Under the pieces are notes generated by a model. It saw nothing but the letters and a program-made list of their open reading frames with translations. It did not search any database and had not been told where the DNA came from. From Acidimicrobiaceae bacterium (GTDB lineage: Bacteria; Actinomycetota; Acidimicrobiia; Acidimicrobiales; RAAP-2): a stretch of 57,408 nucleotides of DNA. Position numbers and translations under genes: made by a program. The DNA is taken from assembly GCA_003138815.1 (NCBI GenBank), contig PLHD01000071.1, positions 1 through 57,408 on the forward strand, read 5' to 3'. Below, one piece after another: positions 7,745 through 46,931 of this stretch. Position 1 is the first letter of the stretch. Every line of letters begins with the position of its first letter.

Positions 7745-7776
7745 ATCCTGCGCGTTTACGCAATGTTCGGTGTGAC

Positions 7777-7805
7777 TTGACACGTTCAGTGAACACCGCT
7801 AGTGT
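7777..7805 (+). promoter_or_regulatory. Promoter of the ABC importer genes
   Basis: TTGACA at 7777-7782, 17-nt spacer, TAGTGT at 7800-7805, about 98 nt before the binding-protein start. It follows directly after the 22-bp hairpin, so the importer has its own transcription start and a leader of about 90 nt. Confidence 0.55.
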
Positions 7806-7902
7806 CATCGCTGTTGGCTGTGGAACGGCCCCCGAGGGGGACGACGGTCGACACCGGTCGTACGCAAGGGGTGCGTCCGACTTCACAAGGGGGGAACCAA
7901 TA

Positions 7903-10513: not shown

Positions 10514-10522
10514 GGAGACCAG

Positions 10523-11539
10523 ATGACGAACCAGATCGATGACCACCTAGACGAACTTGAAGAGGGCGACACCGCGCTCGGCGGATTGCGTTCCGCCAGC
10601 TCGAGGTTGCTGCACTCCTGGCGGACGGCTGGGATCCTCATTCCCTTTCTCGTGCTATTCGCGGTCCTCTCGATTACGAGCCAGCCGTTCCTCCACACAA
10701 CGAACCTCATCAACATCCTCGACCAGCAGGCCGCGACTCTCTGCATCGCCGCCGCGGGAACACTGGTGCTCGTCGCCGGCGGAATCGACCTCTCCGTCGG
10801 GGCGACCTACGGGCTCGCCACCGTGGTGGCGGGCGAGATCGCCGCTCACCACTCGCCGGTGCTCGCCATCGTCGCGGCCATCGCCGTGGGTCTGTTCGTC
10901 GGTTTGCTTAACGGGCTCATCGTCACGGTGTTCAAGATCAATGCGCTGATCACCACTCTGGCGATGTCGTTCGTTATCGGTGGTTTGGCACTCAAGGTGA
11001 GCGGCGGGAACCTTATCGTCCTCTCGGCCAACTCGGGGTTCTACAAGTTCGCTAATTCCCAGTTCCTTACGGTTCCCAGCGCAGTGTGGATGACGCTCGC
11101 CTTCGTAGTCGTCTTGGGCCTGCTGCTGTCGCGCACTACGTTCGGCCGCTACATGGTGGCCTCGGGGGGCAACGCCGAGGCCGGGCGCCTCGCCGGAGTG
11201 CGGGTGAACAGGATCCGCGTCGTCACCTTCACCCTGAGCGGCGGCGCTGCGGCCCTTGGCGGGGTCATCGACATCTCCCGCCTGCTCAGCGCCCAAGCGG
11301 CGAGCGGTGGCAGCGCTCTCGCGTTCACGGTTCTGGCGGGTATCGTGGTGGGTGGGACCTCGATCGCCGGCGGCGAAGGTTCGGTCTGGCGCACGGGAAT
11401 CGGCGTTCTCTTCATTGCGCTGATCGGTAACGGGTTCAACCTGCTCGGGATCGACCCGCTCTACCAGCAGATCGTCCTCGGGGTGATCCTGCTGATTGCG
11501 GTGGGCCTCGACTCGTGGGCCCGCCAGCGCCGGTCCTAG
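10523..11539 (+). CDS. ABC importer permease, RbsC family (BPD_transp_2)
   Basis: 338 residues; ATG at 10523 with GAGGAG upstream, 9 nt after the ATPase gene. A polar N-terminal extension of about 40 residues is followed by eight to ten hydrophobic segments. Typical family features are LVLVAGGIDLSVGATYGLAT (first conserved loop, GIDLSVG) and GGTSIAGGEGSVWRTGIGV near the C-terminus. It forms the membrane channel as a dimer for the binding protein and ATPase before it. Family substrates are pentoses, polyols and nucleosides; none is indicated here. Confidence 0.92.
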   Translation: MTNQIDDHLDELEEGDTALGGLRSASSRLLHSWRTAGILIPFLVLFAVLSITSQPFLHTTNLINILDQQAATLCIAAAGTLVLVAGGIDLSVGATYGLATVVAGEIAAHHSPVLAIVAAIAVGLFVGLLNGLIVTVFKINALITTLAMSFVIGGLALKVSGGNLIVLSANSGFYKFANSQFLTVPSAVWMTLAFVVVLGLLLSRTTFGRYMVASGGNAEAGRLAGVRVNRIRVVTFTLSGGAAALGGVIDISRLLSAQAASGGSALAFTVLAGIVVGGTSIAGGEGSVWRTGIGVLFIALIGNGFNLLGIDPLYQQIVLGVILLIAVGLDSWARQRRS

Positions 11540-11575
11540 GGCCTCGCACAGTCAAGTTCAAAACCAGGAGAAACC

Positions 11576-12928
11576 ATGGGAATTCACACTTACGGAAGCA
11601 ACTCGGTAGATTGGGAGAGCCGCGTCGACATGCCCCGTCTGCGCGAGGAGCGCCTCGCCAAGTTGCAGGCGGAGTTGGAGCGCTCGGACCTGGGGGCGCT
11701 CCTAACCTTCGATTTCCACAACATCCGCTACATGACCGGTACCCACATTGGCACCTGGGCAATGGACAAGCTCATTCGCTTCGCCCTGCTGCCGCGCGGC
11801 GGCAAGCCCATTGTCTGGGATTTCGGTTCGGCGGCTCGCCATCATCAGCTCTACAATCCTTGGCTGAGCGGCGTGCAGGTGATGCCCGATGGATCACAAG
11901 TTCCCTACGAGGGCGCACGGGCCGGCCTGTCAACGTTGCGTGGGGCTATCCCCCCGGGTGCGGACAGAGCCGGGGATGTCGTCGCGAAGATCAAGGAGGT
12001 GCTCCTTCAATTCGGACTACAGAATGAGGCCGTCGGTGTCGACATCGTGGAGATGCCGATCCTCGCCGCCTTCGCGAAGGAGGGAATCAGGTTGGTCGAC
12101 GGTCAGCAGGTCTTCCTCGAGGCCCGCCGAATCAAGACCAGTGATGAGATCTCTCTCTTGACCCAAGCCGCCTCGATGGTCGACGCCGCGTACGAGGAGC
12201 TGTACACGTTCTTGCGACCTGGCGTGAAGGAGAACGAGTGCGTTGCTGTGGTCAACAAGACGCTGTACGACCTGGGTTCCGAACACGTCGAAGGCGTGAA
12301 CGCGATCTCCGGAGAACGGTGCTCACCGCACCCTCACGTCTACAGCGACCGTCTCATCCGTCCCGGTGATCCGGCGTTCTTCGACATTCTTCACAGTTTC
12401 AACGGATATCGGACCTGCTACTACCGGACCTTTGCCGTGGGCAGCGCCTCGGTCGCTCAACGCGACGCGTATACCAAGTGCCGCGAGTTGATTGACATCG
12501 CCATCTCCCTGGTGAGACCCGGTGCGACCACGGCCGACATCGTCTCCATCTGGCCCAAGGCCGAGGACTTCGGCTTTCCGAACGAAGAGGCGGCCTTTGG
12601 ACTGCAGTATGGCCACGGGATCGGCCTGTCGATCTGGGAGCGACCGATCTTCAGCCGAATGGTCTCCTTCGACCACCCCGAGGTGCTCGAAGAGGGGATG
12701 GTGTTCGCCCTCGAGACGTACTGGCCCGCCAAGGACGGATGGTCGGCTGCCCGAATCGAGGAGGAGGTCGTGGTGACCGCAACGGGCTGCGAGGTGATAA
12801 CGAAGTTCCCGGCCGAGGAGCTTCTCGTCGCGGGTAAGAGATACTACGCAGCCGGGGGAGCGCTCTCTGAGCTTCGAGAGTCGCAGTCGAACCTGAACAC
12901 GTCATGGGGACGAGGCGAGTCCAAGTAG
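11576..12928 (+). CDS. M24-family pita-bread hydrolase, DddP/creatinase-like
   Basis: 450 residues; ATG at 11576 with CAGGAGAAA upstream. N-terminal creatinase-like domain (to about 185; ALLTFDFHNIRYMTG) and C-terminal pita-bread domain. The five metal ligands expected for M24 align as D270, C281, H347, E380 and E396/397. The second one, normally Asp exactly 11 residues after the first, is Cys in NGYRTCYYRTF. The N-terminal pattern (FDxxNIRY ... PIVWDF ... NPW) resembles the DMSP lyase DddP more than Xaa-Pro peptidases, which is a remembered resemblance. It is the last gene of the importer operon (36 nt after the permease), so it probably cleaves the imported compound. A peptidase, creatinase-like amidinohydrolase or lyase role are all open. 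Confidence 0.8.
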   Translation: MGIHTYGSNSVDWESRVDMPRLREERLAKLQAELERSDLGALLTFDFHNIRYMTGTHIGTWAMDKLIRFALLPRGGKPIVWDFGSAARHHQLYNPWLSGVQVMPDGSQVPYEGARAGLSTLRGAIPPGADRAGDVVAKIKEVLLQFGLQNEAVGVDIVEMPILAAFAKEGIRLVDGQQVFLEARRIKTSDEISLLTQAASMVDAAYEELYTFLRPGVKENECVAVVNKTLYDLGSEHVEGVNAISGERCSPHPHVYSDRLIRPGDPAFFDILHSFNGYRTCYYRTFAVGSASVAQRDAYTKCRELIDIAISLVRPGATTADIVSIWPKAEDFGFPNEEAAFGLQYGHGIGLSIWERPIFSRMVSFDHPEVLEEGMVFALETYWPAKDGWSAARIEEEVVVTATGCEVITKFPAEELLVAGKRYYAAGGALSELRESQSNLNTSWGRGESK

Positions 12929-20815: not shown

Positions 20816-21030
20816 CTTGAAACCACATCAAGTGTCTCAAGGAATTCGAGAGCGAGAAGAGCAAGCTGAAGAAGTTCATCGCCGGCCGATTTCGGACCCC
20901 GCTTGCGGCGTGATCTTTTTCTGCGATCAAAGGGCCGTGGTACCAACGTGCGAATTGGGGAGTTGTTGAGAAACCGTAGGGAGGCGCGTGTGGTGGCGAT
21001 GCGAGGGTTGCGGCACAAGTGGAAGGCGGA
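20816..21030 (+). pseudogene. IS3-type orfA C-terminal remnant
   Basis: From about 20819 the frame reads HIKCLKEFESEKSKLKKFIA, the coiled-coil end of an IS3/IS911-type OrfA (compare IKxLExENxxLKKxxAD). Further on LLRNRREARVVAMRGL may be the start of orfB. Stop codons interrupt it. It occupies most of the gap between pbpA and the next secreted protein. Confidence 0.5.
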
Positions 21031-21033
21031 CGT

Positions 21034-22587
21034 GTGCGGCAAATCCGAGCCTTTCGACTTGGTAGCTTGACCGCGATCACGACTTTGGCTGCAGCAGTCT
21101 GCTTCGTCGCGCTGCCTGCGCTAGGCGCCACGGGATCGTCACCGTCGAGTGTCTGGAATGTTGCGTCAGCGCCAACTCCAAATGGTGGCTGGTACGCCGT
21201 CGACTTTGTCGATGGTCGATGGATCGCGCTAGGTCACACTGCAGATGTCGCAGTCTCGCTTGACGGCTCAGCGTGGACGGAGTATCCCGTGCCCCCTGGG
21301 TCGTGGCAGTCCGTCACTTATGGAAACGGCCGATTTGTAGCCCTCTCATCCGTGAACGCCAGCCCCCAAGAGATGGTCTCGACGAACGGAGTCAACTGGA
21401 CGGCAGTCTCCGGGCCGGCTGGTCAGTGGACCGGTCTGACTTTCGGTGGAGGGCGCTTCGTTGCGGTCAGTTCGCTCGGACAGATCATCACCTCAACGGA
21501 CGGGGAGCATTGGACGCAGACGTGGCTGCATAGCAAATACCACTTCACCTCAGTCGCCTATGGAAACGGACGCTTCGTCGCGGTCGACGGTGCATTGGGC
21601 ACCACAGTGGTCTCGGTCACTGGCCTCGGCTGGAGCTTCTACCCGGCACCGATGACCGGCCTGCGATGGGGCGCCGTCGCCTACGGCAACGGGAACTTCG
21701 TGGCGTTCGACGGTTCAGGATCGGGCTATATCGCGACGTCCGTCTTGGGATACGTCTGGACCCTGCATCGCTACTCACCGGCCCAGGAGATCAACGGCGC
21801 GACGTTCGGTTGCGGCAGCTTTGTTGCCGCTGGCCAGTCCACGGGGTCGACCAACGACTTCATCTCGTCGCCGACCGGTGCGACATGGACTGCGACAGCG
21901 GTTCCGACCGACGCGGTGTCGGAATGGACTTCTGTCGCCTACGGCGCGCATCGATTTGTCGCCGTCGACAGTACCGGAAACATCGCGTGGCTACAGTCAG
22001 CGGCCAACTGCTCGTCGACAATCCCAATGGCACCGCAGCAGGTGTCAGGGAACGTCCACAACGGCGAGGTGTGGACCTACATGCATCCACCCTCAAGCGC
22101 GGGCGGCGCCCCTGTTAATGGCTACCGCGTCACCCTTACCGACGGCGTGAGCACCAAGCAATGCTCCGCCCCCGTCTACTTCGAACCGAACTGCATCATC
22201 AGAGGCCTAAAGGATCACAAGGTCTACTGGGTCACCGCGCAATCGCACAACCGCTTTGGCTACTCAGTGCCGACCGACGCGCAATCCGTGATACCGGTCG
22301 CGTCATGGAGATTCAACGCGGTTACTGCGACGCCCGTCATTTCTGAATCTGCGCCGGTCGTCGTGCAGGTCACCGGAGTCCTGGCCAACGGCGAGGGCAT
22401 CTATCCCGCCAGTTTGATTGCGGTCCACTTCGACGCGAGGCTCACTTACTGCCGGCCGAGTCCTTTCGGTGAGTGCTTGATCACGGTATCGAATCCGAGC
22501 GTCGGACCAGCCTCGATCTTCGCGACCTACACCGGCTACGGGCGGTCGTATCGTTCACCGGCTTCCCACGTCACGGTCGTGCCGTGA
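21034..22587 (+). CDS. Secreted BNR-like repeat protein with fibronectin-like C-terminus
   Basis: 517 residues; the GTG at 21034 has GAAGGCGG upstream. Signal peptide about 1-32 (LGSLTAITTLAAAVCFVALP, AlaxAla-like site). Residues about 40-330 contain six to seven repeats of about 43 residues, each with (Y/F)GxGRFVAVxS followed by xSxDGxxWT. This matches sialidase-type BNR/photosystem-stability-factor propellers. Around 345-425 a fibronectin-type-III-like segment follows (APVNGYRVTLTDG), then a last beta domain. Probably extracellular or envelope-bound, perhaps adhesive; there is no catalytic Asp-box set to claim sialidase activity. Its leader runs out of an IS3 remnant. Confidence 0.82.
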   Translation: MRQIRAFRLGSLTAITTLAAAVCFVALPALGATGSSPSSVWNVASAPTPNGGWYAVDFVDGRWIALGHTADVAVSLDGSAWTEYPVPPGSWQSVTYGNGRFVALSSVNASPQEMVSTNGVNWTAVSGPAGQWTGLTFGGGRFVAVSSLGQIITSTDGEHWTQTWLHSKYHFTSVAYGNGRFVAVDGALGTTVVSVTGLGWSFYPAPMTGLRWGAVAYGNGNFVAFDGSGSGYIATSVLGYVWTLHRYSPAQEINGATFGCGSFVAAGQSTGSTNDFISSPTGATWTATAVPTDAVSEWTSVAYGAHRFVAVDSTGNIAWLQSAANCSSTIPMAPQQVSGNVHNGEVWTYMHPPSSAGGAPVNGYRVTLTDGVSTKQCSAPVYFEPNCIIRGLKDHKVYWVTAQSHNRFGYSVPTDAQSVIPVASWRFNAVTATPVISESAPVVVQVTGVLANGEGIYPASLIAVHFDARLTYCRPSPFGECLITVSNPSVGPASIFATYTGYGRSYRSPASHVTVVP

Positions 22588-23121: not shown

Positions 23122-24015
23122 TCAACCGAGCGGCGAACTTGCTCCTCGCACTTGGCTGAGCAGCTGGGTGAGCATCGCGTCAGTGATTACGGTCGCGCCG
23201 CTGGGCGCGACCACAGGTTGGGTGTCATGAGTGAGTGAGGCGTGCAGACTGACAGTGGCGTCACCATTCGTGCCGTTTGGCGCTGTGATCGCGAGCGAGC
23301 CGCCGGTCGCCGTTGCACCGGACATCGTGAAACCAATGTCGTAGGTGCCCTTCACGGTGCTCGGCGTGAAGGTCTTGCCGGTATAGCTGTCGAGAGCTGG
23401 CAGTACCGCCTTCACCACCGAGTCCAACGTCCCGGTTTGTGAGTACCCGCCGCTGGCGAGGGTCTTGTAGGGCGTCTTCTCGATCAGCGCGCTCAGCGCG
23501 TCGAGCATTGCCCGCACGGCGGCTTGCTCCTTCGAGGTCTGGGCCGCGTTGATTGTGGTCGTGGGCACGTACGACTTCAGCAGATCCTCGGAGAACTCGA
23601 ACCACCGGCCACCGAACAGCAACTGGAGCGAGGCCAGTTGCTGGGCCGAGACGCCTACCTCGGGGATGTTCGCGAGTGCTGTCACGTCGATTCGCACGTA
23701 CAGGTCGGTGCCAACCTGCCGCAGATCCACCATCGTCTGGGCATCGTCGTTGATCGTGAACTCGGAGTTCACGTGACCCGTCGACTGAGAGAGGGCGCCG
23801 CCACTCGTACTTGCGTAGCGCATATCCACCGAGAGCGCACTGAGGATACCCTGGGCCCGGGCTGATCCGGTGCCCGAGGCGCCGGCCGTGAGGTGCACCT
23901 GAAGATTCGGCGAAGAACCGATCGACGAGACCGCCTGGTTGATCGACGCGGTCGCGCCGCATGCCGCCAGCACCAGTGACGAGACCACCGCACCGACTAT
24001 CCAGAGTTTCCGCAT
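23122..24015 (-). CDS. Lipoprotein, LppX/LprG-like candidate
   Basis: 297 residues; ATG at 24015 with GGTGGAGG upstream (the open frame runs on without a site). Signal peptide with lipobox: MRKLWIVGAVVSSLVLAACG, lipidated Cys at 19. The mature part begins INQAVSSIGSSPNLQVHLTA and has alternating strand patterns (QTMVDLRQVGTDLYVRIDVT, FGGRWFEFSEDLLKSYVP). Such a half-barrel with helices resembles the LppX/LprG lipid-binding fold of actinobacteria or DUF-type relatives. This is a fold guess, not a motif match. Anchored at the outer face of the membrane. Single gene. Confidence 0.75.
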   Translation of the reverse strand: MRKLWIVGAVVSSLVLAACGATASINQAVSSIGSSPNLQVHLTAGASGTGSARAQGILSALSVDMRYASTSGGALSQSTGHVNSEFTINDDAQTMVDLRQVGTDLYVRIDVTALANIPEVGVSAQQLASLQLLFGGRWFEFSEDLLKSYVPTTTINAAQTSKEQAAVRAMLDALSALIEKTPYKTLASGGYSQTGTLDSVVKAVLPALDSYTGKTFTPSTVKGTYDIGFTMSGATATGGSLAITAPNGTNGDATVSLHASLTHDTQPVVAPSGATVITDAMLTQLLSQVRGASSPLG

Positions 24016-24099
24016 GGTGACCTCCACCGTTGTGTCGTCATTGGTCACAGTACCGCCATAGACGAGCCGGATGCCACTAATTTGAGTCCGATTCTCTAT

Positions 24100-24332
24100 G
24101 GCGCTACCAGCGTCGACGAAAGAGGAATCGCCTTGACGCCGGCGTCTGGTGGAGGATGTGCTTGGGACGGGGCGAGCGTTCGGCGAGCGCCTCGATCCCG
24201 CCTTCTCCGTAGCGTCATCCATCGATAGGGAGACTGTTGGCTGACGCAAAACTTCCGTGCGGCACCCGAGACCGAGAACCGGTCTCGGATGACAACAACA
24301 ACCCCCTTGTCGGCAGTGATTCTGTGCATCAC
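24100..24332 (-). pseudogene. IS481-family transposase N-terminal remnant
   Basis: Minus-strand frames joined by frameshifts give MMHRITADKG..., then GAARKFCVSQQSPYRWM (helix-turn-helix), then GGIEALAERSPRP and HQTPASRR. These segments stand in the order found at the start of IS481 transposases (VSRxTVYRW, GxxALxDRSxRPHxSP). The catalytic DDE part is missing. Confidence 0.6.
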
Positions 24333-24383
24333 GTAGCTTCAGCCAGGACTGCTCACAAAAACTTCGACCTTTGCAATCTTCAT

Positions 24384-24938
24384 CTACTGCGCTTCTTCCC
24401 GCCGCGATTCTGACTCGCCGTCGAGCCACCCCACGTCAGCCAAGATTCTGTCGACGATCTCAAGAGGACTCAAATCGACGCTAACTTTTGCCCCGAGTTC
24501 CTCGTCATCAAGCGGTTCCAAGATTGCAAACTGCGATGCGAGGAGCGACGGTTGCATGAACTCGTGATTTCTCGCGTCAACTCTCGTTTGAATAACTGTC
24601 GGTGGAGCATCCAAGCATACGAAAAATGCATCTGGACTGTACTCCCGCAGAATGTCACGATAGCTGCGCTTCAGCGCAGAGCACGCTACGACCGTTCTCC
24701 GATGGCTTGATTCCATGTCTTTCATGTGTTGTCCGACGAGGCGCAACCATGGTAATCGTTCCTGGTCATTGAGTGGCTGGCCAATGGACATCTTCGCGAC
24801 GTTGCTTGCCGGGTGTAACTGATCTGCGTCACAGAACTCAGAACCCGTCCTTTGCGCCAGCGCAAATCCAATCGTGCTCTTGCCTGAACCAGACACACCC
24901 ATAATCACAATTGATTGAATATCCGCAATCTGCTTCAA
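24384..24938 (-). CDS. gntK: Gluconokinase
   Basis: 184 residues, a normal GntK length. It phosphorylates D-gluconate to 6-phosphogluconate with ATP in the cytoplasm. Walker A IVIMGVSGSGKSTIG (about 11-25), CDADQLHPASNVAKMSIGQPLNDQERLPWL (substrate-binding DxHxxxNxxKMxxGxPLxDxDRxPWL motif) and VVACSALKRSYRDILRE are all present, and the C-terminal LEPLDDEELGAKVSVDLSP is typical. The gene stands alone between IS remnants, without gluconate permease or dehydrogenase, so regulation by a GntR partner is not visible. Confidence 0.94.
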   Translation of the reverse strand: MKQIADIQSIVIMGVSGSGKSTIGFALAQRTGSEFCDADQLHPASNVAKMSIGQPLNDQERLPWLRLVGQHMKDMESSHRRTVVACSALKRSYRDILREYSPDAFFVCLDAPPTVIQTRVDARNHEFMQPSLLASQFAILEPLDDEELGAKVSVDLSPLEIVDRILADVGWLDGESESRREEAQ

Positions 24939-26126: not shown

Positions 26127-28679
26127 GTGCCAGTTGGCAAGTCGGATCGCAGACTGAAGCGAACCTTGGTCACTTACAATGAACTGCTGGACGTCGCCCT
26201 GAACCTGCGATGGACCTGGAAGATTAACGCGAGGCACCTCTTCGCGAGCCTGGATCCCGACGCCAGTCCTGGGGCGCTCGAGTGGCCGCATCAGTTGCTG
26301 CTCGGACTCGGCAGGTCCAAGGTCACGGAAGTCCTGAACGCCAATCCAGAGATCGCCGAACTCGCACGAACGGTTGTCGAGGAGTTCCGGTTATACGACA
26401 AGAAGACGAACAAGACCTGGTACTCGACGCGCCATCGTGGGCAGAAGGGTCTCGTGGTGGCGTATTTCGCGGCCGAGTATTCGCTCACTGATTCGTTGCC
26501 AATCTTCGCTGGCGGCCTAGGCACCGTGGCTGGCGAACATATGAAAGCCTCGAGCGCCCTCGGTGTCCCCGTCGTCGGGATAGGCCTCTTGTACCGGGGA
26601 ACATCGCATCAGTGGCTGGACCGCGAAGGCCATCAGCACGAGGCGTGGGATATGACATCACCGAACCAGATGCCTATCGAACGAGTCAAAGATCCGCAAG
26701 GACGAGTGATCGAAGTCACGGTATCGCTGCCCGGTCGGGACATTCAAGTAGCGGTCTACCGTGCTCGCGTTGGGAGGAATCCACTCCTTTTGCTCGACAG
26801 CTCCGTAAGTTCGAACTCGCAGTCCGACCAAACGTTGACTGCCCGACTGTACGACAGTGACGTCGATATCCGCTTCGCGCAGGAGCTGATTCTGGGTGTT
26901 GGGGGCGTGCGAGCGCTCGCCGCGGTGGGCATAGAGGCCGAAGTCCTGCACCTCAATGAAGGCCATTCATCGTTCGCGGTGCTCGAGCGCATTCGCCGAG
27001 TAATGGCGGAGGAGGGATTGAGCTTCAACGAGGCGTGTTGCGCAGTGCGGCCGGGTATTCTCTTCACCACTCACACGCCAGTGGCCGCGGGGCACGACTA
27101 CTTCTCGCCGTCGGTGGCCCGGCGCTTTCTCGCCCCTTACGCCGCCCAAGTTGGAGTCGAAACGGAAACGCTGGTATCGCTCGGACGGATGTATCCGGAC
27201 AGTTCCGACGACGCATTCTGTCCAACCGTGTTCGCGATGCGCATGGCGGGACACCGCAACGGCGTCAGCCGATTGCACGGAAGAGTAACCCGAGAGCAGT
27301 GGGCGGCGCTCTGGCCCCGGCTACCGCTTGAGGAAGTTCCCATCGGCTACGTCACGAACGGAGTGCATCTAGAGTCGTGGACTACCAGCCAATATAGTGA
27401 GCTTTTCGCCTCCGCCGTGGACCCGAAATGGCACGTCACCCCGGGCGATCCAGTCATGTGGTCCAAACTCCTCAATGTCAGTGACTCGGAACTCTGGCGG
27501 GTGAAGAACGCCGCCCGCGCCGAACTGGTGGAGTTCACCCGCCGCCGCGCCCGTAACGAACTGGCACGCCGGAACGCACCGATCGAGCGAGTGGTCTCGG
27601 CGACGCTACTTGACCCGGATCGGCTCACCATCGGCTTCGTCGGCCGGTTCGTTGCCTACAAGCGTCCAACCTTGCTGCTGAGCGATCCCGAGCGCCTAGC
27701 CCGGCTGCTAAAGAATCCTGAACGCCCGGTTCAGATCGTCTTTGCCGGCAAGGCTCACCCCGATGACCAGCCTGGAAAACTTCTACTGCAGAACATGATC
27801 GAATTCGCCACGCGTTACGAGGTCACCGATCGGGTCGTCTTCATCGTCGACTTCGACCTCACGATGGACCGCTCGCTCGCCCAGGGGGCGGACGTCTGGT
27901 TGAATACTCCGCGACGACCCCTGGAAGCTTGCGGCGTCGGCGGAATGAAGGCAGGAATGAACGGAGCACTGAATTTCAGCACGGTGGACGGCTGGTGGGA
28001 CGAGGCCTGTCTCGACGCCGATCGGGCGGCGGTACCAATCGGCTTCACCATCGGAACCGCCGGTCCGTACGCCGACGATGAAATCCAGGACATGCTCGAC
28101 GCCGAGTCGCTCTACGACGTCCTGGAGAATGAGATAATCCCCCGTTTCTACGAACGTGACAGTGGGGGCGTACCGCGCGCATGGATTGCGTCGGTGAAGC
28201 AGTCGATGTCAACCCTGGCTCCGACGTGGGATGCCCTGCGAATGACGCGCGAATATACCGAGTCGTACTACCTTCCCGGGTTGTCTATGGTGCAGCGACT
28301 TCGCTCGGGTGAGGCCAAGTCGGCCCGAGCCCGAGCCCGCGATCTCGATCGATTGCGGTCCAACTGGCCGGGTCTCACGGTCGCCATCACCCAGCGAGAT
28401 CCAACACCGAATTTGAGAGAACAGGTCGAGCTGGTAGTGCATCTCAGCAACCTGGACCCGGCTGACCTGCGCGTCCAGCTCTGGATCGCCTGGCGTGGTG
28501 AGATCCCGCGAGCCGTCGACGCCATGCTCGTTGACCGTGAAGGCAACCAAGCACGCTACGTTGGCATCGCCGAGCGGCGCGCAGGTGTCGAACCGGATGA
28601 GGTAGTTGCGAGAGTCCTGCCGTCGTTAATGCACAGCGACGGCGAGGCGATTGCCTCGCTGATCACGTGGTCCCAATGA
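26127..28679 (+). CDS. glgP: Alpha-glucan (glycogen/maltodextrin) phosphorylase, GT35
   Basis: 850 residues starting at GTG 26127 with GGGAGG upstream. It releases glucose 1-phosphate from alpha-1,4-glucans using phosphate and pyridoxal phosphate. Features of the bacterial distant GlgP branch: an N-terminal domain (NLRWTWKINARHLFASL), VAYFAAEYSLTDSLPIFAGG with GLGTVAGEHMKASSALGVP, LHLNEGHSSFAVLERI, FTTHTPVAAGHDYF, FVGRFVAYKRPTLL, FAGKAHPDD, and the PLP-lysine region GVGGMKAGMNGALNFSTVDG. A C-terminal segment of about 100 residues after the phosphorylase core forms an additional beta-domain. First gene of a four-gene operon; its stop overlaps the next start as ATGA. A second, shorter phosphorylase ends the operon. 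Confidence 0.95.
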   Translation: MPVGKSDRRLKRTLVTYNELLDVALNLRWTWKINARHLFASLDPDASPGALEWPHQLLLGLGRSKVTEVLNANPEIAELARTVVEEFRLYDKKTNKTWYSTRHRGQKGLVVAYFAAEYSLTDSLPIFAGGLGTVAGEHMKASSALGVPVVGIGLLYRGTSHQWLDREGHQHEAWDMTSPNQMPIERVKDPQGRVIEVTVSLPGRDIQVAVYRARVGRNPLLLLDSSVSSNSQSDQTLTARLYDSDVDIRFAQELILGVGGVRALAAVGIEAEVLHLNEGHSSFAVLERIRRVMAEEGLSFNEACCAVRPGILFTTHTPVAAGHDYFSPSVARRFLAPYAAQVGVETETLVSLGRMYPDSSDDAFCPTVFAMRMAGHRNGVSRLHGRVTREQWAALWPRLPLEEVPIGYVTNGVHLESWTTSQYSELFASAVDPKWHVTPGDPVMWSKLLNVSDSELWRVKNAARAELVEFTRRRARNELARRNAPIERVVSATLLDPDRLTIGFVGRFVAYKRPTLLLSDPERLARLLKNPERPVQIVFAGKAHPDDQPGKLLLQNMIEFATRYEVTDRVVFIVDFDLTMDRSLAQGADVWLNTPRRPLEACGVGGMKAGMNGALNFSTVDGWWDEACLDADRAAVPIGFTIGTAGPYADDEIQDMLDAESLYDVLENEIIPRFYERDSGGVPRAWIASVKQSMSTLAPTWDALRMTREYTESYYLPGLSMVQRLRSGEAKSARARARDLDRLRSNWPGLTVAITQRDPTPNLREQVELVVHLSNLDPADLRVQLWIAWRGEIPRAVDAMLVDREGNQARYVGIAERRAGVEPDEVVARVLPSLMHSDGEAIASLITWSQ

Positions 28680-31600
28680 CCGCCGACGCACTCCCTGGCG
28701 TCTCGTCGGCACTGCGCAAGCTGGCCGAACTACGCGGCGTCGGCGTCGGCTACGTCGATGGGCGAGGGGCAACCCGGTCGGCCGACGTCGATATCCTCAT
28801 GGCCGTACTGAACTCCTTTGGTGATATGGATAGGATCTCATCGCCCGACGACGCTCGGACCGTGCTTCGAGGTCGCCGCCAACAGATCCTCGAGCGGATC
28901 CTCGAGCCCGTCTACGTAGTGGACGAGGGCGTGGAAACGCTGCTGCCAATACGTCCAGGAAGAAAATCCCTCATCGTGGAGTGTCGAGTGGAGTTCGAGT
29001 TCGGAGGGGAAATTACCTGGAGCGTTCCCTCCGATTTGCTGGCACCGTTGCCAAAGGCCACCGGTGCCCACGAGCCGTCGTGGGGACTGGCTCTGCCGGC
29101 GATGCGCGTGGGTTATCACCACCTGAACGTGATCGTCGGGCGACGAGCGACTCGCTCGACGATCATCGCTCGTCCGTTGCGAGGCGCGTCCCGTCGTTTC
29201 GCCCGAGACTGGCGCGCCTATTCGGTACAGGCTCCAATCTTCTCACTGCATTCACAGCGCAGTTGGGGTAGTGGTGACGTCGGCGACCTCGACGAGTTCG
29301 CGCGCCTCGTGGCCAATCAGCACGCCAGCGTCGTTTCGACCCTGCCGCTGCTGGCGACGTTCGGTCCCAATGATTTTGAGTCGAGCCCCTATCGGCCCGT
29401 GAGCCGGCGGTTTTGGAATGATCGATGGATTGCTCTCGATCAGGTCGAGCACTTGGCCAGCTCGACGGCAGCGCAGCATCTGATGAATGACACATACTCC
29501 CCCTCGCGCCGTGAGGCGTGGACCCTCAACGGTGTCGTAGACGGCGCCGCAGCCTTTGCGGCCAAACGTAATGTGTTACAGGCATGGGCTGTAACACATA
29601 GCGAGTACATGACGGAACGCGAAAGCGGACTGCGTTCCTACGTCATGGACCATCCTGATTTGAACGACTACGCCCGATTCCGAGCCGCCGGCGAGCGGTT
29701 CGGTCTTGACTTTCATCGTTGGCCCTCGACGGCGCGAAGCGGACTTCTGCGGTGGAATGATGTCGATCCAATCGTGGTTCGCTACCACATGTTCGCCCAA
29801 TGGATCATCGATGAGCAGATGACCGAATTGGCGTCGCGTCTCTCTCAGCGCGGACAGACGCTCGAACTCGACATTCCAATCGGTGTCCACCCTCACGGTT
29901 ACGATGTGTGGAGGAACCCGGAAGATTACGTCAGCACGGTATCGATTGGTGCACCGCCTGACGATCTCACGTCTCAAGGTCAGAACTGGGGGTCGCCCCC
30001 GCTGCACCCTGACCGATGCCGAGAGGACGCGCACAGTAAGTTTCGCGAGGCGCTGCGATTCCACATGCGCATTGCGGGCGTCGTACGCATTGACCACGTA
30101 ATGGGACTGCAACGACTGTTCTGGGTGCCCGAGGGGGCATCTCCCGAACAGGGGCTCTACGTGGCTATGCCGTTTGAGGAGCTTCTCGCCGTCGTCGCCA
30201 TCGAGGCTCAACGAACCAAAGTCGACGTCATTGGAGAGGACCTGGGCACCGTGGAAGACAAACTGCGAGATGCCCTGGAGCGTGATGGAATGCGGCGCAC
30301 GTACGTCGTGCAGTACGCGATTGGCGCCAAGAGGCTTGCCGAGGTGCCCAACGGATCGGTGGCCTCCTTTGGGACCCACGATACGGCGACCTTCGCGGGG
30401 TGGTGGAGCGGCCTGGACATCGATGAAATGCTCAGCCTCGGTCGGCTTGATCGGCCCGCGGCGAAGGCCGCCCGTCACCGTCGCAGCACCGAACGCCAGA
30501 ACCTCGTGCGCGAACTGGGCTGCGGCGTCGACGATGATCCCAGCGTCGTGCTCGCCGCCGTGCACGCGTTTCTCGCCGACAGCGACGCGGGACTGGTCAT
30601 GGTGCAGCTCGATGACGTGCTGGAGGAAACCTCGGCGGTCAACCTTCCCGGGACCTCAACGCAGCGTCCGAACTGGAGTCGCCGATCCCGATTGAGCTTG
30701 GAGCAGCTCGCCGCCTCCTCGGATCTCGCGAGCGCCCTCAAGCCCCTGAGCCAGCGACGAGGCTACGCGAGGCCGGTGGAGCAAAGCGGTGCGTCCCAGA
30801 CCCGGTTCGACGTAACGCGCTTCACGCCAGAGGACTTGCACCTGCTCAGCGAAGGACGGCACTTTCGCCTCTACAACCACCTGGGCTGCCATCCGATGGT
30901 CGCCGGAGGCGTGGCCGGGTGCTACTTCGCCGTCTGGTCGCCCAACGCCGACCGAGTCTCGGTTATCGGCGAGTTCAATGGCTGGGACGGGACACGACAT
31001 CCTCTTACTCCACGCGAGAGCTCCGGGGTGTGGGAAGGCTTCATTCCCGGCGTCGAGGAATTGACCACCTACAAGTACCGGCTGCATTCGCGACTGGGTG
31101 GTGAAGAGTTCGACAAGACCGATCCGATGGGTCGTTATTTCGAAGTCCCTTCAGCGACGGCGACGCGGGTATGGAGTTCGAGGTACACCTGGACTGACGA
31201 TCAGTGGACGGCCGATCGTGCAACGTACCGCGCACGCGAGCGGCCGGTGTCGGTCTATGAGGTGCACCTCGGTTCATGGCGGCGCGTACCAGAAGAGGGA
31301 GATCGCCAGCTGACGTACCGCGAGTTGGCGCCGTTACTTGCGGCGTACGCCGTCGAGATGGGCTTCACCCACGTGGAGCTGCTACCGGTCATGGAACACC
31401 CGTTCTACGGGTCGTGGGGCTATCAGACGACCGGCTACTTCGCACCGACTTCACGGATGGGCACGCCGGACGATTTCAAGTTCCTGGTCGATCAACTCCA
31501 CCAGGCGGGAATCGGAGTGCTGCTTGACTGGGTGCCCTCGCACTTCCCGGCCGACCAGTTCGCCCTCGCGCGCTTCGACGGTTCGTACCTCTATGAACAC

Positions 31601-32692
31601 GCAGACGCTCGTCAGCGCGTGCACCCCGACTGGCAGAGCTGGACCTTCAACTACGGACGCAACGAGGTGCGGAGCTTTCTCATTTCCAGCGCATGCTTCT
31701 GGCTCGACGAATACCACATTGACGGGCTACGGCTCGACGCGGTCGCGTCAATGCTGTACCTCGACTACTCGCGCCAGCCTGGCGAGTGGGTGCCCAATCG
31801 CTTCGGCGGACACGAAGATCTCGACGCGGTCGAGTTCCTTCGTCAGTGCACCACCGAAACCACTGACTCCTTCCCCGGCGTGATGGTGGTCGCCGAGGAG
31901 TCGACGTCGTGGCCAGCGGTCACGGGACCCGTGACCGACTCCGGCTTGGGGTTCACGTTCAAATGGGATCTCGGTTGGATGCACGACACTCTGGACTACC
32001 TGGCGCACGATCCGATTCATCGTCGCTACCACCAGAACGAATTGACCTTCCGAGGGGTCTACGCCGCCCACGAAAGCTTCATACTTCCGCTCTCACACGA
32101 TGAGGTTGTCCACGGCAAGGGCTCGCTCCTGGCCAAGATGGCCGGTGACCAATGGCAGCAGCGCGCCAATCTCAGATTGCTCTTCGGTTACCAGTACACC
32201 ATCCCCGGAAAGAAGCTGCTCTTCATGGGAGATGAGTTTGCTCAAGCGAGCGAATGGGATCACGACAAGTCGCTCGATTGGCATCTGCTGGAAAGTGTCG
32301 AGCACCAGGGCGTGGCTCGTTGGGTGCGCCGCCTCAACGCCCTTTATCGCGACCACGCGGCGCTGCACCGTGATGACGCGAGCGCGGGGGACTTCGCTTG
32401 GTTGAGTTGCGACGACGCCCCCCAAAGCGTCCTGATATGGCGACGCGGTACCGGCGACGGCGAGTTGGTCGTGATCGCCAACTTCACCCCGGTGCCGCGA
32501 GACAACTACGAGTTCCAGGTGTCACCGAGCGAACGATGGGCGGTCGCGGCCAACAGTGACGAGCTCGTCTACGGTGGCAGCGGCTACTTGACGAGTGGCG
32601 AGTTCACGGCATCGGCCGACGACCACTTCGGAAACGTGTTGCGCGTCTCGTTGCCTCCTTTGTCCCTCGTCGTGCTGAGGCGCGTCGCGTAG
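28676..32692 (+). CDS. Fusion: 4-alpha-glucanotransferase (MalQ, GH77) + 1,4-alpha-glucan branching enzyme (GlgB, GH13)
   Basis: 1338 residues in one uninterrupted frame; ATG 28676 overlaps the glgP stop. Residues 1 to about 700 are amylomaltase: an N-terminal actinobacterial-type domain, the GH77 entry FSLHSQRSWGSGDVGDL, nucleophile D473 in RIDHVMGLQRLF, acid in VIGEDLGTVED and FGTHDTATFAGWW. From about 717 (TPEDLHLLSEGRHFRLYNHL) a full branching enzyme follows: CBM48 (AVWSPNADRVSVIGEFNGWD), VYEVHLGSWRR, nucleophile D1021 in DGLRLDAV, acid in VVAEESTSW, D1142 in LSHDEVVHGKGSL and a C-terminal beta domain. Both catalytic sets look intact. Alone, MalQ is about 500-700 residues and GlgB about 630-730, so this is a true two-enzyme fusion. 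It should rearrange linear glucans and branch them in one polypeptide. Confidence 0.95.
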   Translation: MTADALPGVSSALRKLAELRGVGVGYVDGRGATRSADVDILMAVLNSFGDMDRISSPDDARTVLRGRRQQILERILEPVYVVDEGVETLLPIRPGRKSLIVECRVEFEFGGEITWSVPSDLLAPLPKATGAHEPSWGLALPAMRVGYHHLNVIVGRRATRSTIIARPLRGASRRFARDWRAYSVQAPIFSLHSQRSWGSGDVGDLDEFARLVANQHASVVSTLPLLATFGPNDFESSPYRPVSRRFWNDRWIALDQVEHLASSTAAQHLMNDTYSPSRREAWTLNGVVDGAAAFAAKRNVLQAWAVTHSEYMTERESGLRSYVMDHPDLNDYARFRAAGERFGLDFHRWPSTARSGLLRWNDVDPIVVRYHMFAQWIIDEQMTELASRLSQRGQTLELDIPIGVHPHGYDVWRNPEDYVSTVSIGAPPDDLTSQGQNWGSPPLHPDRCREDAHSKFREALRFHMRIAGVVRIDHVMGLQRLFWVPEGASPEQGLYVAMPFEELLAVVAIEAQRTKVDVIGEDLGTVEDKLRDALERDGMRRTYVVQYAIGAKRLAEVPNGSVASFGTHDTATFAGWWSGLDIDEMLSLGRLDRPAAKAARHRRSTERQNLVRELGCGVDDDPSVVLAAVHAFLADSDAGLVMVQLDDVLEETSAVNLPGTSTQRPNWSRRSRLSLEQLAASSDLASALKPLSQRRGYARPVEQSGASQTRFDVTRFTPEDLHLLSEGRHFRLYNHLGCHPMVAGGVAGCYFAVWSPNADRVSVIGEFNGWDGTRHPLTPRESSGVWEGFIPGVEELTTYKYRLHSRLGGEEFDKTDPMGRYFEVPSATATRVWSSRYTWTDDQWTADRATYRARERPVSVYEVHLGSWRRVPEEGDRQLTYRELAPLLAAYAVEMGFTHVELLPVMEHPFYGSWGYQTTGYFAPTSRMGTPDDFKFLVDQLHQAGIGVLLDWVPSHFPADQFALARFDGSYLYEHADARQRVHPDWQSWTFNYGRNEVRSFLISSACFWLDEYHIDGLRLDAVASMLYLDYSRQPGEWVPNRFGGHEDLDAVEFLRQCTTETTDSFPGVMVVAEESTSWPAVTGPVTDSGLGFTFKWDLGWMHDTLDYLAHDPIHRRYHQNELTFRGVYAAHESFILPLSHDEVVHGKGSLLAKMAGDQWQQRANLRLLFGYQYTIPGKKLLFMGDEFAQASEWDHDKSLDWHLLESVEHQGVARWVRRLNALYRDHAALHRDDASAGDFAWLSCDDAPQSVLIWRRGTGDGELVVIANFTPVPRDNYEFQVSPSERWAVAANSDELVYGGSGYLTSGEFTASADDHFGNVLRVSLPPLSLVVLRRVA

Positions 32693-34735
32693 ATGCCACC
32701 GGTCGCGGGGTTCTTCCTCCACTTCTACCAACCCCCCCGCGAGGACCCCTGGCTCGGAATCGTCACCAACGAATGGAGCGCCTGGCCATACCACGACTGG
32801 AATGAACGGATCGCCGCCGAGTGCTACCGGGCCCTGATTGCCGTGGCGCTACCCCGCGGCGACCACCAGGGCAACGAGCTTGTCGAGCCGCTGGCCAGCA
32901 GTAGCTTCGACGTCGGTCCCACGCTGCACAACTGGCTGGAGCGGTGCTCCCCGGACGTCGATCGAGCCCTTCGCTACCAGGTGGGTCGCGTCGCGCCCGG
33001 ACCAGGCGCGGTGGCCCTCGCCGCTCCGATGGTGCACGCGATCCTGCCATTGGCGAGTGCCGACGATCGTAGGCGACTCGTGGCGTGGGGGATCGCGGAC
33101 TACTCGCAGCGTTTCGCCAGCCCCCCCTCAGGCATGTGGTTGCCCGAGACCGCGGTCGACATCGAGACGTTGGGGACCCTCGTTGATCAGGGAATCGGTT
33201 TCACGATCCTCATGCCCACCCAGGCCGTTCGAGTTCGCGAACACGGAGGCGCTTGGCGCGGCGTTGACGCCAACACCCTCGATACGACGCGGCCGTACCT
33301 CGTTCGACTCGACCACGGACGGACCATCACCGTCGTGTTCGGGAACGCAAGCCTCTCCCAGCGCGTGGCCTTCGGCGACTTGATCGACAACGGGACTGAA
33401 CTCGCCGACGCGATGCTCGAAGAGCTGAAGGACCGTGATGGTGTGGTCCTGCTCGTGGCCGACGGCGAAACCTATGGTCACCACCACCGCTTCGGGGATC
33501 TTGGTCTCGCGTGGGCGCTGCGCCGCCTTCAGCGCCACTACGGCATCAGCACGACGCTCGGAGAATGGTTGTCGACTCAGGAACCTACGCACGAGGTCGA
33601 ACTCGCCTCGGTGTCGGCGTGGAGTTGCGCGCACGGGGTGGAGAGGTGGCGCAGCGACTGCGGGTGCGTGACAGGTGAGCTGCCGGGCTGGAAGCAGGAC
33701 TGGCGCGGCCCGCTGCGCCAGGCGCTCGACTGGCTGCGCGAGACCCTGGGTGATTCAGTCGACGCCGAACTCGCGCGTCATGTTCGCTCGGTCGACGAGG
33801 CGCTGGTGGACTACGGCCAGGTGTTAGCCGGCACGGTGCGGCCTGACGAGTTCGTCATCGAACACGCCCAGAGGGCACTGGACGGCGACGAGATGAGTCT
33901 CGTGCTGGAACTGTGCGAGGTCCATCGGAACTTGCTCTACAGCTTCACCAGTTGCGCGTGGTTCTTCGCCGATCCCGCCCAGATCGAGACCTCGATAGTC
34001 CTTCGCTACGCCGCTGTCGCGATGGAGATCGCTCACCGGGCGCTGGGCCTCGACCTGGAGCCCGAGTTCGTCGATCGTCTGGCCGGGGTCCGATCTAATC
34101 GACCGGGTATCGGCGGGGCAGAACTCTGGCGACTGGCCTGCGAGCCGTACCGCTTCGACGAGGCCCTCGTCGCCGCGGGATTCGCCGCCGAGAGGTTCGC
34201 TTGTGGACAAGCAGCCAGGACGGCACGAGGATTCTGGCGGGCCGAGGTGGCGTTGGTCGGTGACGACGCAGGCAGCGAGCGGATCGCCCTGACGAACACG
34301 CTGACCCTGCGTCGAAGCGAGTTCGACACTCGCGTCGCGCGAACCGGGGCCCTGGGCGTAGAGGTGCACGTTGGTCATGCCGCTGGCGCCGAGCGCTTCG
34401 ACCTCGGCCAACTCGGCAGTGACGTCGTGGCGAGGATGGCCGCCTCGTGGCTGGTGGGAACCGGGAGTGACAACTACGAGGGTGCCCTCGACCTGCTCGT
34501 GGCCTACCTGCTCGAGCGGGCGGCCAACAGTGACGACGTGGCGGTGCTGGTCGCTCTGGCCAGCGCGCCGAGGTACGTCACCCCCGTTGGGGAGGCCTCC
34601 ATTCGTCGTGCGCTGCTGGCGATCATCGAATGCGTGGATGCCCAAAGCGACCTCGACAGCCTGGCGCCTCTGGCGCGTGCCGTCGGCCTTGGTGACATCG
34701 TGGACCATCAGTCATCCCCAGCCGTGAGCGGTTAG
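32693..34735 (+). CDS. GH57 glycoside hydrolase with DUF3536-type C-terminus
   Basis: 680 residues; its ATG follows the previous stop codon directly (TAGATG). The GH57 barrel starts GFFLHFYQPPREDPW (HxHQP-like motif, here HFYQP). The nucleophile candidate is E152 in GMWLPETAVDIETL and the acid/base candidate D257 in LLVADGETYGHHHRFG. ITVVFGNASLSQRVAF lies between. The C-terminal half (DYGQVLAG ... ALVAAGFAAERFACGQ) matches the DUF3536 class found with glycogen enzymes. GH57 members are alpha-amylases, 4-alpha-glucanotransferases or branching enzymes; which one this is cannot be settled. Its place in the operon points to intracellular alpha-glucan trimming. No signal peptide. Confidence 0.88.
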   Translation: MPPVAGFFLHFYQPPREDPWLGIVTNEWSAWPYHDWNERIAAECYRALIAVALPRGDHQGNELVEPLASSSFDVGPTLHNWLERCSPDVDRALRYQVGRVAPGPGAVALAAPMVHAILPLASADDRRRLVAWGIADYSQRFASPPSGMWLPETAVDIETLGTLVDQGIGFTILMPTQAVRVREHGGAWRGVDANTLDTTRPYLVRLDHGRTITVVFGNASLSQRVAFGDLIDNGTELADAMLEELKDRDGVVLLVADGETYGHHHRFGDLGLAWALRRLQRHYGISTTLGEWLSTQEPTHEVELASVSAWSCAHGVERWRSDCGCVTGELPGWKQDWRGPLRQALDWLRETLGDSVDAELARHVRSVDEALVDYGQVLAGTVRPDEFVIEHAQRALDGDEMSLVLELCEVHRNLLYSFTSCAWFFADPAQIETSIVLRYAAVAMEIAHRALGLDLEPEFVDRLAGVRSNRPGIGGAELWRLACEPYRFDEALVAAGFAAERFACGQAARTARGFWRAEVALVGDDAGSERIALTNTLTLRRSEFDTRVARTGALGVEVHVGHAAGAERFDLGQLGSDVVARMAASWLVGTGSDNYEGALDLLVAYLLERAANSDDVAVLVALASAPRYVTPVGEASIRRALLAIIECVDAQSDLDSLAPLARAVGLGDIVDHQSSPAVSG

Positions 34736-34745
34736 ATTCGATGGA

Positions 34746-36899
34746 ATGAATAACCGATTTGATGGATCTCGCGATATGCGTCGCGCGATTGATCGCCTGG
34801 CCCGACGACTTCCCGAGCCACTCGAGGATCTCGCGTGGATCTCCTACAACTACCTCTGGTCGTGGACCCCCGGCGGAAGCGAGCTCTTTCGCAGCATCGA
34901 TGCATACCGGTTCATGGTGGCGGGGGAGAATCCGGTGCGGTTTCTCCTCAATCTGCCCGAACGCGACCTGCTCCGCGCCGCCACTGACCGAGATCTGCTG
35001 GATCAACTCCAACGAGTGGCCCAGGTCATCGATGCCGACCTGCAACGCCCCACCCAGCGGGTTCTGTCGAACGGTCCGGTCGCGTTCTTCTGCGCGGAAT
35101 TCGGCGTCCACCAGTCGCTGCCGGTCTACTCCGGCGGACTCGGGGTCCTGGCCGGCGACCTTCTCAAGGAAATGTCGGATCAGGCGCTCGACGTCGTGGC
35201 AGTCGGACTGCTCTACCGACGCGGTTATCTTCACCAGCGCATGAGTCTCGAGGGCTGGCAGCACGAGTACTGGCTCGAGGCAAACACCGATCTGCTTCCC
35301 GCGGTGCGCGTGCGGGGGGCCGACGGACTGCCGCTGAGAGTCACGGTGCCGGTATGGGACGGCGAGCTGGCCGCGCACGTGTGGCGCGTGGACGTGGGGC
35401 GCACTCCGCTCTACCTGCTCGACGCCGAGCTCGCGGAGAACAACCCGTTGGAGCGCTGGGTCACGGCGCGCCTCTACGAAGGTTCGCCCGAGATTCGACT
35501 GGCCCAGTACGCGCTGCTCGGCATCGGCGGCGTTCGAGCGCTCGACGCCATGGGCATCAGTCCCGCACTCTTCCACCTGAACGAAGGCCATCCGGCGCTC
35601 GCACCGCTGGAGATCGCCTCGCGGACATCGAGCGAACTCGCTGGGGACCGCCTGGGGCTCGAGAAGCTCTTGGACATTGGCCGTGACCGATTCGTCTTTA
35701 CGACCCACACTCCGGTGCCCGCGGGCAACGAGACCTACGACCCGGACGTCTTCTTCTCCGTGCTCGGTCGTTCGGTTGACCAAATGGGACTATCGCGTGA
35801 CGAGTTGAGTTCCGCCAGTCGGGTCGACGCCGCCGCCACGACCGAGCCGCTGGGTCTCTCCCCGCTGGCGATCAGGTCTGCGCGCTCGACCAACGCGGTG
35901 AGCAAACGCCACGGCGAAGTAGCCCGCACCATGTGGAGTCCACTCTTTCCCACCGTGAAGCTGGACGATGTGCCCATCACCCACGTCACCAACGCGGTGC
36001 ACCTGCCGACGTGGATGGCTCCCGATATGCGCGACCTACTCACCAAGTTCTTCGGTGCCGATTGGGAGCTTCACGCCAACGACCCGGGGCTGTGGAGTCA
36101 CGTGGACGAGATCCCGGACGTTGAGCTCTGGAGGGCGCGGTGCGACCTGCGACTCCAATTGGTGGAAATGCTTCGTAGTCGCATCGTGGTCGATCGTTTG
36201 GCGCGAGGCGAGGACGTCGCCCTGGCCGAGTCGGCGTTCAGCGCCTTCGACCCCACGCACCTGACCATCGGCTTCGCTCGCCGATTGGCTACCTACAAAC
36301 GACTCGACCTCTTGTTCCACGATGTTGAGCGCCTTCACGGCATCATCGATCATGACCAGGGAGTGCAGATCATCTTGGCCGGCAAGGCTCATCCCCTCGA
36401 TTACGAGGCGAAGAGCGTGGCGAAGAACGTTTTCGTAGTGAAGCGGGGGCTGGAAACGACCAACCGCGTGGTCTTCCTGGAAGACTACGACCTGCGGGTC
36501 GCACCGCAACTCGTGGCGGGGTGCGACGTTTGGCTGAATCTTCCTCGACCGCCCTTCGAGGCCAGCGGCACCAGTGGAATGAAATCAGCACTCAACGGTG
36601 GACTCAACCTGAGCGTATTGGACGGCTGGTGGTGCGAGGGGTACAACGGGCGCAACGGCTGGGCGATCGATGGATCGACGGTGGACGACCCAGAAGCGCA
36701 GGACGAACGGGACGCGACGGCGCTGTACGAACTATTGGAAAGTGAGGTGAAGCCCCTCTTTTATTCGCGCGACGCCAACGGAGTGCCCGCGCTTTGGCTG
36801 GCGCGAGTGCGCGAATCACTGCGAAGCCTTGGTCCGCAGTTCAGTTCGGCGAGGATGGTCAACGACTACGTCAACCAGGTCTACCGGCCGAGTCACTAG
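34746..36899 (+). CDS. glgP: Second alpha-glucan phosphorylase, GT35
   Basis: 717 residues, shorter than the first copy because it ends soon after the phosphorylase core. N-terminal DLAWISYNYLWSWTPGGSEL, FFCAEFGVHQSLPVYSGGLG, LFHLNEGHPALAPLEI, FTTHTPVPAGNETYDPDVFF, GFARRLATYKRLDLL, ILAGKAHPLD and the PLP region SGTSGMKSALNGGLNLSVLDG are all intact. Ten nucleotides after the GH57 gene, last of the operon. The two phosphorylases differ widely in sequence (for example GVGGMKAGMNG against SGTSGMKSALNG). They are thus old paralogues, likely with different chain-length or branch preferences rather than a recent duplication. Confidence 0.94.
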   Translation: MNNRFDGSRDMRRAIDRLARRLPEPLEDLAWISYNYLWSWTPGGSELFRSIDAYRFMVAGENPVRFLLNLPERDLLRAATDRDLLDQLQRVAQVIDADLQRPTQRVLSNGPVAFFCAEFGVHQSLPVYSGGLGVLAGDLLKEMSDQALDVVAVGLLYRRGYLHQRMSLEGWQHEYWLEANTDLLPAVRVRGADGLPLRVTVPVWDGELAAHVWRVDVGRTPLYLLDAELAENNPLERWVTARLYEGSPEIRLAQYALLGIGGVRALDAMGISPALFHLNEGHPALAPLEIASRTSSELAGDRLGLEKLLDIGRDRFVFTTHTPVPAGNETYDPDVFFSVLGRSVDQMGLSRDELSSASRVDAAATTEPLGLSPLAIRSARSTNAVSKRHGEVARTMWSPLFPTVKLDDVPITHVTNAVHLPTWMAPDMRDLLTKFFGADWELHANDPGLWSHVDEIPDVELWRARCDLRLQLVEMLRSRIVVDRLARGEDVALAESAFSAFDPTHLTIGFARRLATYKRLDLLFHDVERLHGIIDHDQGVQIILAGKAHPLDYEAKSVAKNVFVVKRGLETTNRVVFLEDYDLRVAPQLVAGCDVWLNLPRPPFEASGTSGMKSALNGGLNLSVLDGWWCEGYNGRNGWAIDGSTVDDPEAQDERDATALYELLESEVKPLFYSRDANGVPALWLARVRESLRSLGPQFSSARMVNDYVNQVYRPSH

Positions 36900-44175: not shown

Positions 44176-46931
<2,756 letters not shown>

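Follow-up and report, generated by a model that had tools for sequence, protein, structure and literature searches.

A MalQ-GlgB fusion protein conserved in an actinobacterial lineage known from MAGs

Main finding

The window analysed here (the whole stretch of 57,408 nucleotides of contig PLHD01000071.1, from an Acidimicrobiaceae bacterium, assembly GCA_003138815.1) encodes a 4-alpha-glucanotransferase (MalQ) and a glycogen branching enzyme (GlgB) in one open frame. Both catalytic sets are complete, the fusion and the gene cluster around it are conserved, and relatives with separate malQ and glgB genes carry them adjacent to each other. On these sequence grounds the gene most probably specifies one bifunctional alpha-glucan remodelling enzyme, derived from adjacent malQ and glgB, that acts within a tight cluster on a glycogen-like store.

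The fusion gene and its catalytic domains

The sequence-only reading had described a single frame of 1338 codons carrying a full GH77 set and a full CBM48-GH13 branching-enzyme set, and translation bears this out. Positions 28676-32692 (+) give 1338 residues with no internal stop; RIDHVMGL lies at residue 471, GEDLG at 520 and GTHD at 566, followed by DGLRLD at 1016, AEES at 1073 and SHDE at 1140. Reading the frame upstream of the ATG also reveals an alternative GTG start at 28667. The gene and its parts are as follows.

28676..32692, + strand: malQ-glgB fusion gene, an open frame of 1338 codons plus stop, assigned by protein families and by conservation in relatives
28901..29176, + strand: MalQ_N-like N-terminal beta domain, residues 76-167, a weak match (PF21226, 24.6 bits, cut-off 24.1)
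29234..30691, + strand: GH77 4-alpha-glucanotransferase (MalQ), residues 187-672 (Pfam PF02446, 321 bits, cut-off 25)
30746..30823, + strand: linker, approximately residues 691-716, of variable length and sequence, in which no internal start preceded by a ribosome site is conserved
30833..32680, + strand: GlgB branching-enzyme half, residues 720-1335 (NCBIfam PRK05402; 1m7x and other GlgB structures)
30881..31129, + strand: CBM48 of the GlgB half, residues 736-818 (Pfam PF02922, 76.4 bits)

Residues 140-689 score 260.8 bits against the NCBIfam malQ equivalog TIGR00217 (cut-off 205.65), and residues 720-1335 score 894.7 bits against the GlgB equivalog PRK05402 (cut-off 741). Pfam adds an Alpha-amylase_C domain at residues 1242-1336 (60.7 bits) and matches its Alpha-amylase family in two stretches of the protein. 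Among solved structures, GlgB 1m7x comes closest (670 bits); the MalQ half is nearest to 5b68 (220 bits) and to 4s3p, the MalQ of E. coli (208 bits). Alignment to 5b68 and 4s3p identifies D473, E521 and D569 as the GH77 catalytic residues, and alignment to 1m7x finds H956, D1021, E1075 and D1142 in place in the GlgB half, with D1021/E1075/D1142 as the catalytic triad. Third-position GC is alike across the junction, at 0.71 and 0.77 in the two halves and 0.81 in the linker. Judged from sequence, the fusion is supported by halves that exceed curated cut-offs, by catalytic residues that are kept and by a frame that is conserved across genomes.

Fused relatives

When a public genome collection was scanned with the fusion protein, 58 loci were returned, nine of which (L003-L009, L012, L013) cover both halves near full length. 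Of these nine records, eight bear the title Acidimicrobiaceae, Acidimicrobiales or Actinomycetes and one, L012, is titled Acidobacteria; palsa, bog and fen are named in the record titles of five. All but one of the nine probably recur in our survey of the GTDB family, as frame lengths and positions are the same.

In that survey some match at E 0.001 was present in 84 of 150 genomes of the window's GTDB family, and the junction lay within one frame in 23 of the 150. Twenty of these belong to the window's genus and three to two other genera (G018 and G032 to a second, G060 to a third). The genus total is made up of 16 near full-length fusions, the window included, and four that are cut by contig ends yet cross the junction (G093, G103, G135, G138). 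The frames of 22 of the 23 were read individually and G135 was judged from its match alone, while G141, whose frame is cut before the junction, stands outside the count. The two-gene type, with malQ and glgB adjacent and malQ first, was found in 28 genomes (27 and G003), and the remainder showed neither arrangement at the search depth, or fragments only. The sequence-only reading had named as contrary evidence relatives that all keep two separate genes; with 23 fused genomes in the family this is not the case. Its remark that the two genes are nearly always separate fits most of the genomes surveyed, but the window protein has fused relatives and is not unique.

Sequence conservation extends to the active sites. 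We compared 25 distinct fused frames: that of the window, 22 more from the family group and two from other families. All 25 keep the GH77 triad, and the GlgB triad is complete in the 23 that extend far enough, the other two stopping at contig ends. In both halves dN is below dS against every relative with a computable dS, most dS values being near saturation; against L127 the dN/dS pairs for the two halves are 0.14/0.97 and 0.09/0.92.

The junction and the linker

Measured between equivalent positions, the linker spans 25 residues in the window and approximately 16 to 28 in the other family fusions. These linkers differ in length and sequence and have little in common, and a frameshift is never found in them. 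Likewise, the stop or frameshift near residues 690-720 that the sequence-only reading had suggested looking for is absent from the window. The relatives' separate malQ and glgB almost touch, so a small sequencing or assembly error could merge two such neighbours into an apparent fusion. We rejected this reading because relatives cross the junction in one frame, the 23 fused family genomes each being another species and their linkers varying as described; the chance that a missed stop or frameshift accounts for the fusion is vanishingly small.

A different proposal is that the fusion is made, yet translation from a start within the linker also yields free GlgB, leaving the two enzymes partly apart. 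In the window, codon 701 is indeed an in-frame GTG closely preceded by GAGG, but an in-frame linker start with a ribosome-site-like motif occurs in only four of the 25 fused frames, the window included, and its place differs among them. Separate production of GlgB by this route is accordingly very unlikely.

A structure predicted for residues 139-1338 from 16 sequences had a mean pLDDT of 64 and a pTM of 0.47, with low confidence over linker residues 698-711 (model residues 560-573, under 50). Foldseek ranked GlgB structures at the top, but with an rmsd of ~14 A and a TM-score by target of at most 0.57, so the GlgB half is poorly arranged in the model; E. coli MalQ came next, with an rmsd of 5.5 A and a TM-score of 0.69. 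The predicted model is compatible with two enzyme domains loosely tethered to each other, and its packing of the halves is not reliable. The sequence-only reading had proposed that linear glucan could pass from disproportionation to branching through the fusion, controlling glycogen fine structure; the variability of the linker and its low predicted confidence suggest that it may serve as a tether rather than as a built channel.

The gene cluster around the fusion

The fusion gene lies among three other genes for putative alpha-glucan-active proteins, all on the same strand.

26127..28679, + strand: alpha-glucan phosphorylase GlgP1, upstream of the fusion (TIGR02094, 713.4 bits)
32693..34735, + strand: GH57 protein with DUF3536 (Pfam), its ATG directly after the fusion's stop
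34746..36899, + strand: second alpha-glucan phosphorylase, GlgP2 (TIGR02094, 708.7 bits), starting ten bases after the GH57 gene

The stop of GlgP1 overlaps the ATG of the fusion by 4 bases. The order GlgP1, fusion, GH57, GlgP2 recurs at the fused genes of the family to the extent that their flanks cover it, with the exception of the G018 locus, which is without the GH57 gene; several contigs end too early for the cluster to be judged. At two fused loci a phosphorylase gene is split over two or three frames and is either decayed or mis-assembled, namely the downstream one in L006 (~9427-11701) and the upstream one in L117, the locus of G032 (~5214-8320). Inspection of the flanks did not find the family's cluster around the fusions of G537 and G680, which belong to other families, and the cluster is therefore no fixed companion of the fusion.

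The two phosphorylases differ in a motif around a lysine which we take to be the cofactor-binding residue. GlgP1 and its aligned orthologues carry EACGVGGMK (EACGIGGMK in G018 and EACGVGAMK in L006), and GlgP2 has EASGTSGMK. A suspected loss of the cofactor lysine from GlgP1 was rejected, as the lysine is kept and it is the loop before it that differs. Judging by these motifs, GlgP1 and GlgP2 are probably not interchangeable. The GH57-DUF3536 protein has almost no similarity to solved structures beyond one match to a GH57 alpha-amylase (E 0.0012).

Elsewhere in the window, positions 44176-46407 (-) encode a catalase-peroxidase (1167 bits to TIGR00198), and two frames upstream of the cluster, at 21019-22587 (+) and 23122-24429 (-), have 522 and 435 codons and no Pfam or NCBIfam match. 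These two frames may be spurious products of GC-rich DNA.

Separate genes and the origin of the fusion

The family's two-gene type offers a plausible starting point for the fusion. All 27 separate pairs adjoin on the same strand with malQ ahead of glgB; frames were read for 18 of them, and the other nine have unequal frame lengths and so are not one frame. In G003 (L094) malQ and glgB share a frame that is interrupted by a single TGA, at once followed by a GTG start, and this junction is a natural near-fusion state. The separate type thus has the same genes, order and closeness as the fusion, but it yields two polypeptides, and in the three loci where the GH13 gene behind glgB was scanned this gene scored over the TreZ cut-off (3/3). 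We infer that the fusion originated by the joining of neighbouring malQ and glgB lying in that order.

In trees of the two halves, the fused proteins of the family fall into one clade with SH-aLRT support of 100 and 99 percent, and this main fused clade is, by its sequences, evidently one lineage. The 19 separate pairs of the family make up a group distinct from it, and in neither tree is it nested inside the family's separate genes, the deep branches being weakly supported. The trees were of the 'quick' kind with SH-aLRT support only and near-identical loci dropped; the MalQ tree holds 61 of 61 rows and the GlgB tree 68 of 136 (loci that also have MalQ, and others picked by hand). One half-tree labels the contig-cut loci L011, L119, L121, L123, L125 and L126 as not fused, which inflates its count of changes.

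This topology also bears on the alternative that these genera acquired the fused gene by horizontal transfer, and that it was not formed from the adjacent pair native to the family. The separation of the fused clade from the 19 pairs favours transfer, as do the presence of the separate type within the window's own genus, in G115 and G140, and the differing neighbours, with treZ behind glgB in the separate loci scanned. On the other side, the deep branches are weak, and a tree constrained to unite the family's GlgB, fused and separate, is worse by 9.9 log units and is not rejected (p-AU 0.297). We give transfer slightly less than an even chance. The search for fused relatives and their phylogeny, proposed by the sequence-only reading, has yielded such relatives and a main clade of one lineage, for which descent from the family's own pair is a candidate origin.

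Fusions also occur outside the family. A survey of the class, which misses any fusion whose MalQ half scores worse than 1e-60, gave matches at that threshold in 111 of 296 genomes; five of these are fused, three in the window's genus and the others (G537, G680) in two other families. The G680 fusion leaves its contig inside the GlgB half. That of G537 has a linker of ~80 residues, a stretch of N in the MalQ half and a TreZ gene alongside, and a long frame on its other side is putatively TreS-maltokinase-like. Contamination as the source of the G537 fusion is not indicated, as its contig has a GC of 0.55-0.56 and five other stretches of that genome have 0.53-0.58. Grouping this fusion with the main clade was not rejected for MalQ (p-AU 0.364) or GlgB (p-AU 0.355), the MalQ constraint test being run without row L134 (49% filled).

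In surveys of the phylum (396 genomes) and of the class of G785 (369 genomes), fusions were judged among the matches listed, so that more are possible; no full-length fusion was among those listed for the class of G785. Long frames at other GlgB genes (L153-L163) were considered as possible fusions and rejected, as none contains a MalQ match. One of them, L159, from another genome of the phylum, resembles the window in having GlgB behind a domain of another enzyme in one frame (taken from stop to stop), but its partner is a maltokinase cap (Mak_N_cap, 41.2 bits) and not GH77.

Glucan-making genes in the family

The genes usually associated with glucan synthesis are scarce in the family. GlgC (TIGR02091, E 1e-40 or better) was present in one of the 150 genomes, G053, which is of the separate type, and had no match at that threshold in the window's genome. 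The corynebacterial-type GT4 glycogen synthase (GlgA/GlgM, TIGR02149) exceeded its 302.4-bit cut-off in two of 150 genomes, G070 and G053, neither of them fused. Both draws seem to consist of the same 150 family genomes as the fusion survey, as the handles shown agree, most genomes without a match being unlisted.

The best TIGR02149 score in the window's genome, 111.3 bits, comes from a GT4 frame of 407 residues whose best model is MshA (380.9 bits vs a cut-off of 462.5); it gives 30 bits to PF08323 and 70.5 to GlgA TIGR02095 (cut-off 328). For the GT5 synthase GlgA (PF08323), the draw covered 70 genomes of the genus, among them 15 of the 20 that are fused; in 36 of the 70, short partial matches of between 19 and 37 bits (best 36.8) exceed the Pfam cut-off. 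These lie mostly in a 408-residue frame, the window's genome being without a listed match, and they may represent the same MshA-like gene as the window's GT4 frame. Two other GH13 frames in the window's genome have as best NCBIfam models BglA beta-galactosidase, phosphotrehalase TreC and TreS, all under cut-off, with the TreS-like GH13 at 355 bits.

The scarcity of GlgC and GT4 synthase raises, without showing, the possibility of a glycogen route free of nucleotide sugars. Linear glucan could come from phosphorylase, from imported oligosaccharides that are disproportionated, or from some enzyme that our searches did not recognise. According to a review, maltodextrins can form when MalQ acts on maltose or maltooligosaccharides, and the maltose enzymes take part in glycogen synthesis in E. 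coli (PMC10395257). A stronger version would treat the cluster as a sugar-nucleotide-free glycogen unit, in which reverse phosphorylase action turns glucose-1-phosphate into linear glucan that the fusion resizes and branches in one tethered step, replacing the putatively missing GlgC, GlgA and GlgE. We regard this version as unlikely; the weak GT5 matches and the TreS-like GH13 lower its odds slightly.

Proposed function

As a bifunctional remodelling enzyme, the fusion protein would act in successive steps. The N-terminal GH77 half is predicted to disproportionate maltooligosaccharides into longer linear alpha-1,4 chains, and a short, presumably flexible tether would link it to the C-terminal GH13 branching enzyme, which would cut alpha-1,4 chains and re-attach the pieces as alpha-1,6 branches. 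Its gene would be translated from a tight cluster, probably together with two phosphorylases and, in most loci, a GH57 enzyme. Given both activities in the cell, the protein may have a role in making and turning over a glycogen-like store, whichever direction of flux prevails.

The same gene content could instead serve breakdown or salvage, with the phosphorylases, MalQ and GH57 degrading imported or stored glucan and GlgB only reshaping it, or the GH57 neighbour could do the main branching. According to a review (PMC11046441), breakdown is a frequent role of GlgP, MalQ and the GH57 amylases, and branching enzymes too are found in GH57; the near absence of GlgC and the corynebacterial-type synthase from the family points the same way. 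However, the branching half keeps its catalytic residues, with dN below dS. In addition, the window's genome gave no match to a separate GlgB, and this suggests that the fusion protein takes part in making branched glucan there. A role restricted to breakdown, or main branching by GH57, is on balance rather unlikely, and remodelling of a glycogen-like store by one bifunctional enzyme is the reading we prefer.

Relation to known fusions

The architecture is already known, and the window represents a new, conserved actinobacterial lineage of this known fusion. A 2024 review in Chem Rev (PMC11046441) describes a fusion of glgB and malQ in Neisseria whose N-terminal part is the glucanotransferase and whose C-terminal part is the branching enzyme; the species is printed 'suica' in the text and 'sicca' in a figure legend. 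The Neisseria sicca protein as described there has the same two enzymes in the same order in one polypeptide as the window protein, but it comes from a different phylum and is compared by description only. The Neisseria glycogen genes named in the legend are glgP, glgX and amylosucrase, whereas the window's neighbours are two phosphorylases and GH57 (PMC11046441). A literature search, which left most subscription journals outside, found no report of a MalQ-GlgB fusion beyond this review.

Other long NCBIfam models share the MalQ part only. The GH77 half matches the MalQ part of PRK14507 (malto-oligosyltrehalose synthase, 1693 positions) with 419.4 bits against a cut-off of 2148, and that of PRK14510 (GlgX/4-alpha-glucanotransferase) with 299.7 bits against 2511; by name the partner in these models is TreY or GlgX, whereas in the window it is GlgB. 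To what was known, this analysis adds an actinobacterial lineage with its own cluster, two more cases in the class and a near absence of the usual glucan-making genes.

Significance

The MalQ-GlgB fusion is a stable, conserved gene in an actinobacterial lineage known here from MAGs and is not a one-off. As a natural single-chain pair, it could help to answer whether glycogen structure changes when a chain-lengthening enzyme is tethered to a branching enzyme. If the lack of GlgC and glycogen synthase is real, this group of organisms would also be suited to testing glycogen storage by phosphorylase, MalQ and GlgB in bacteria.
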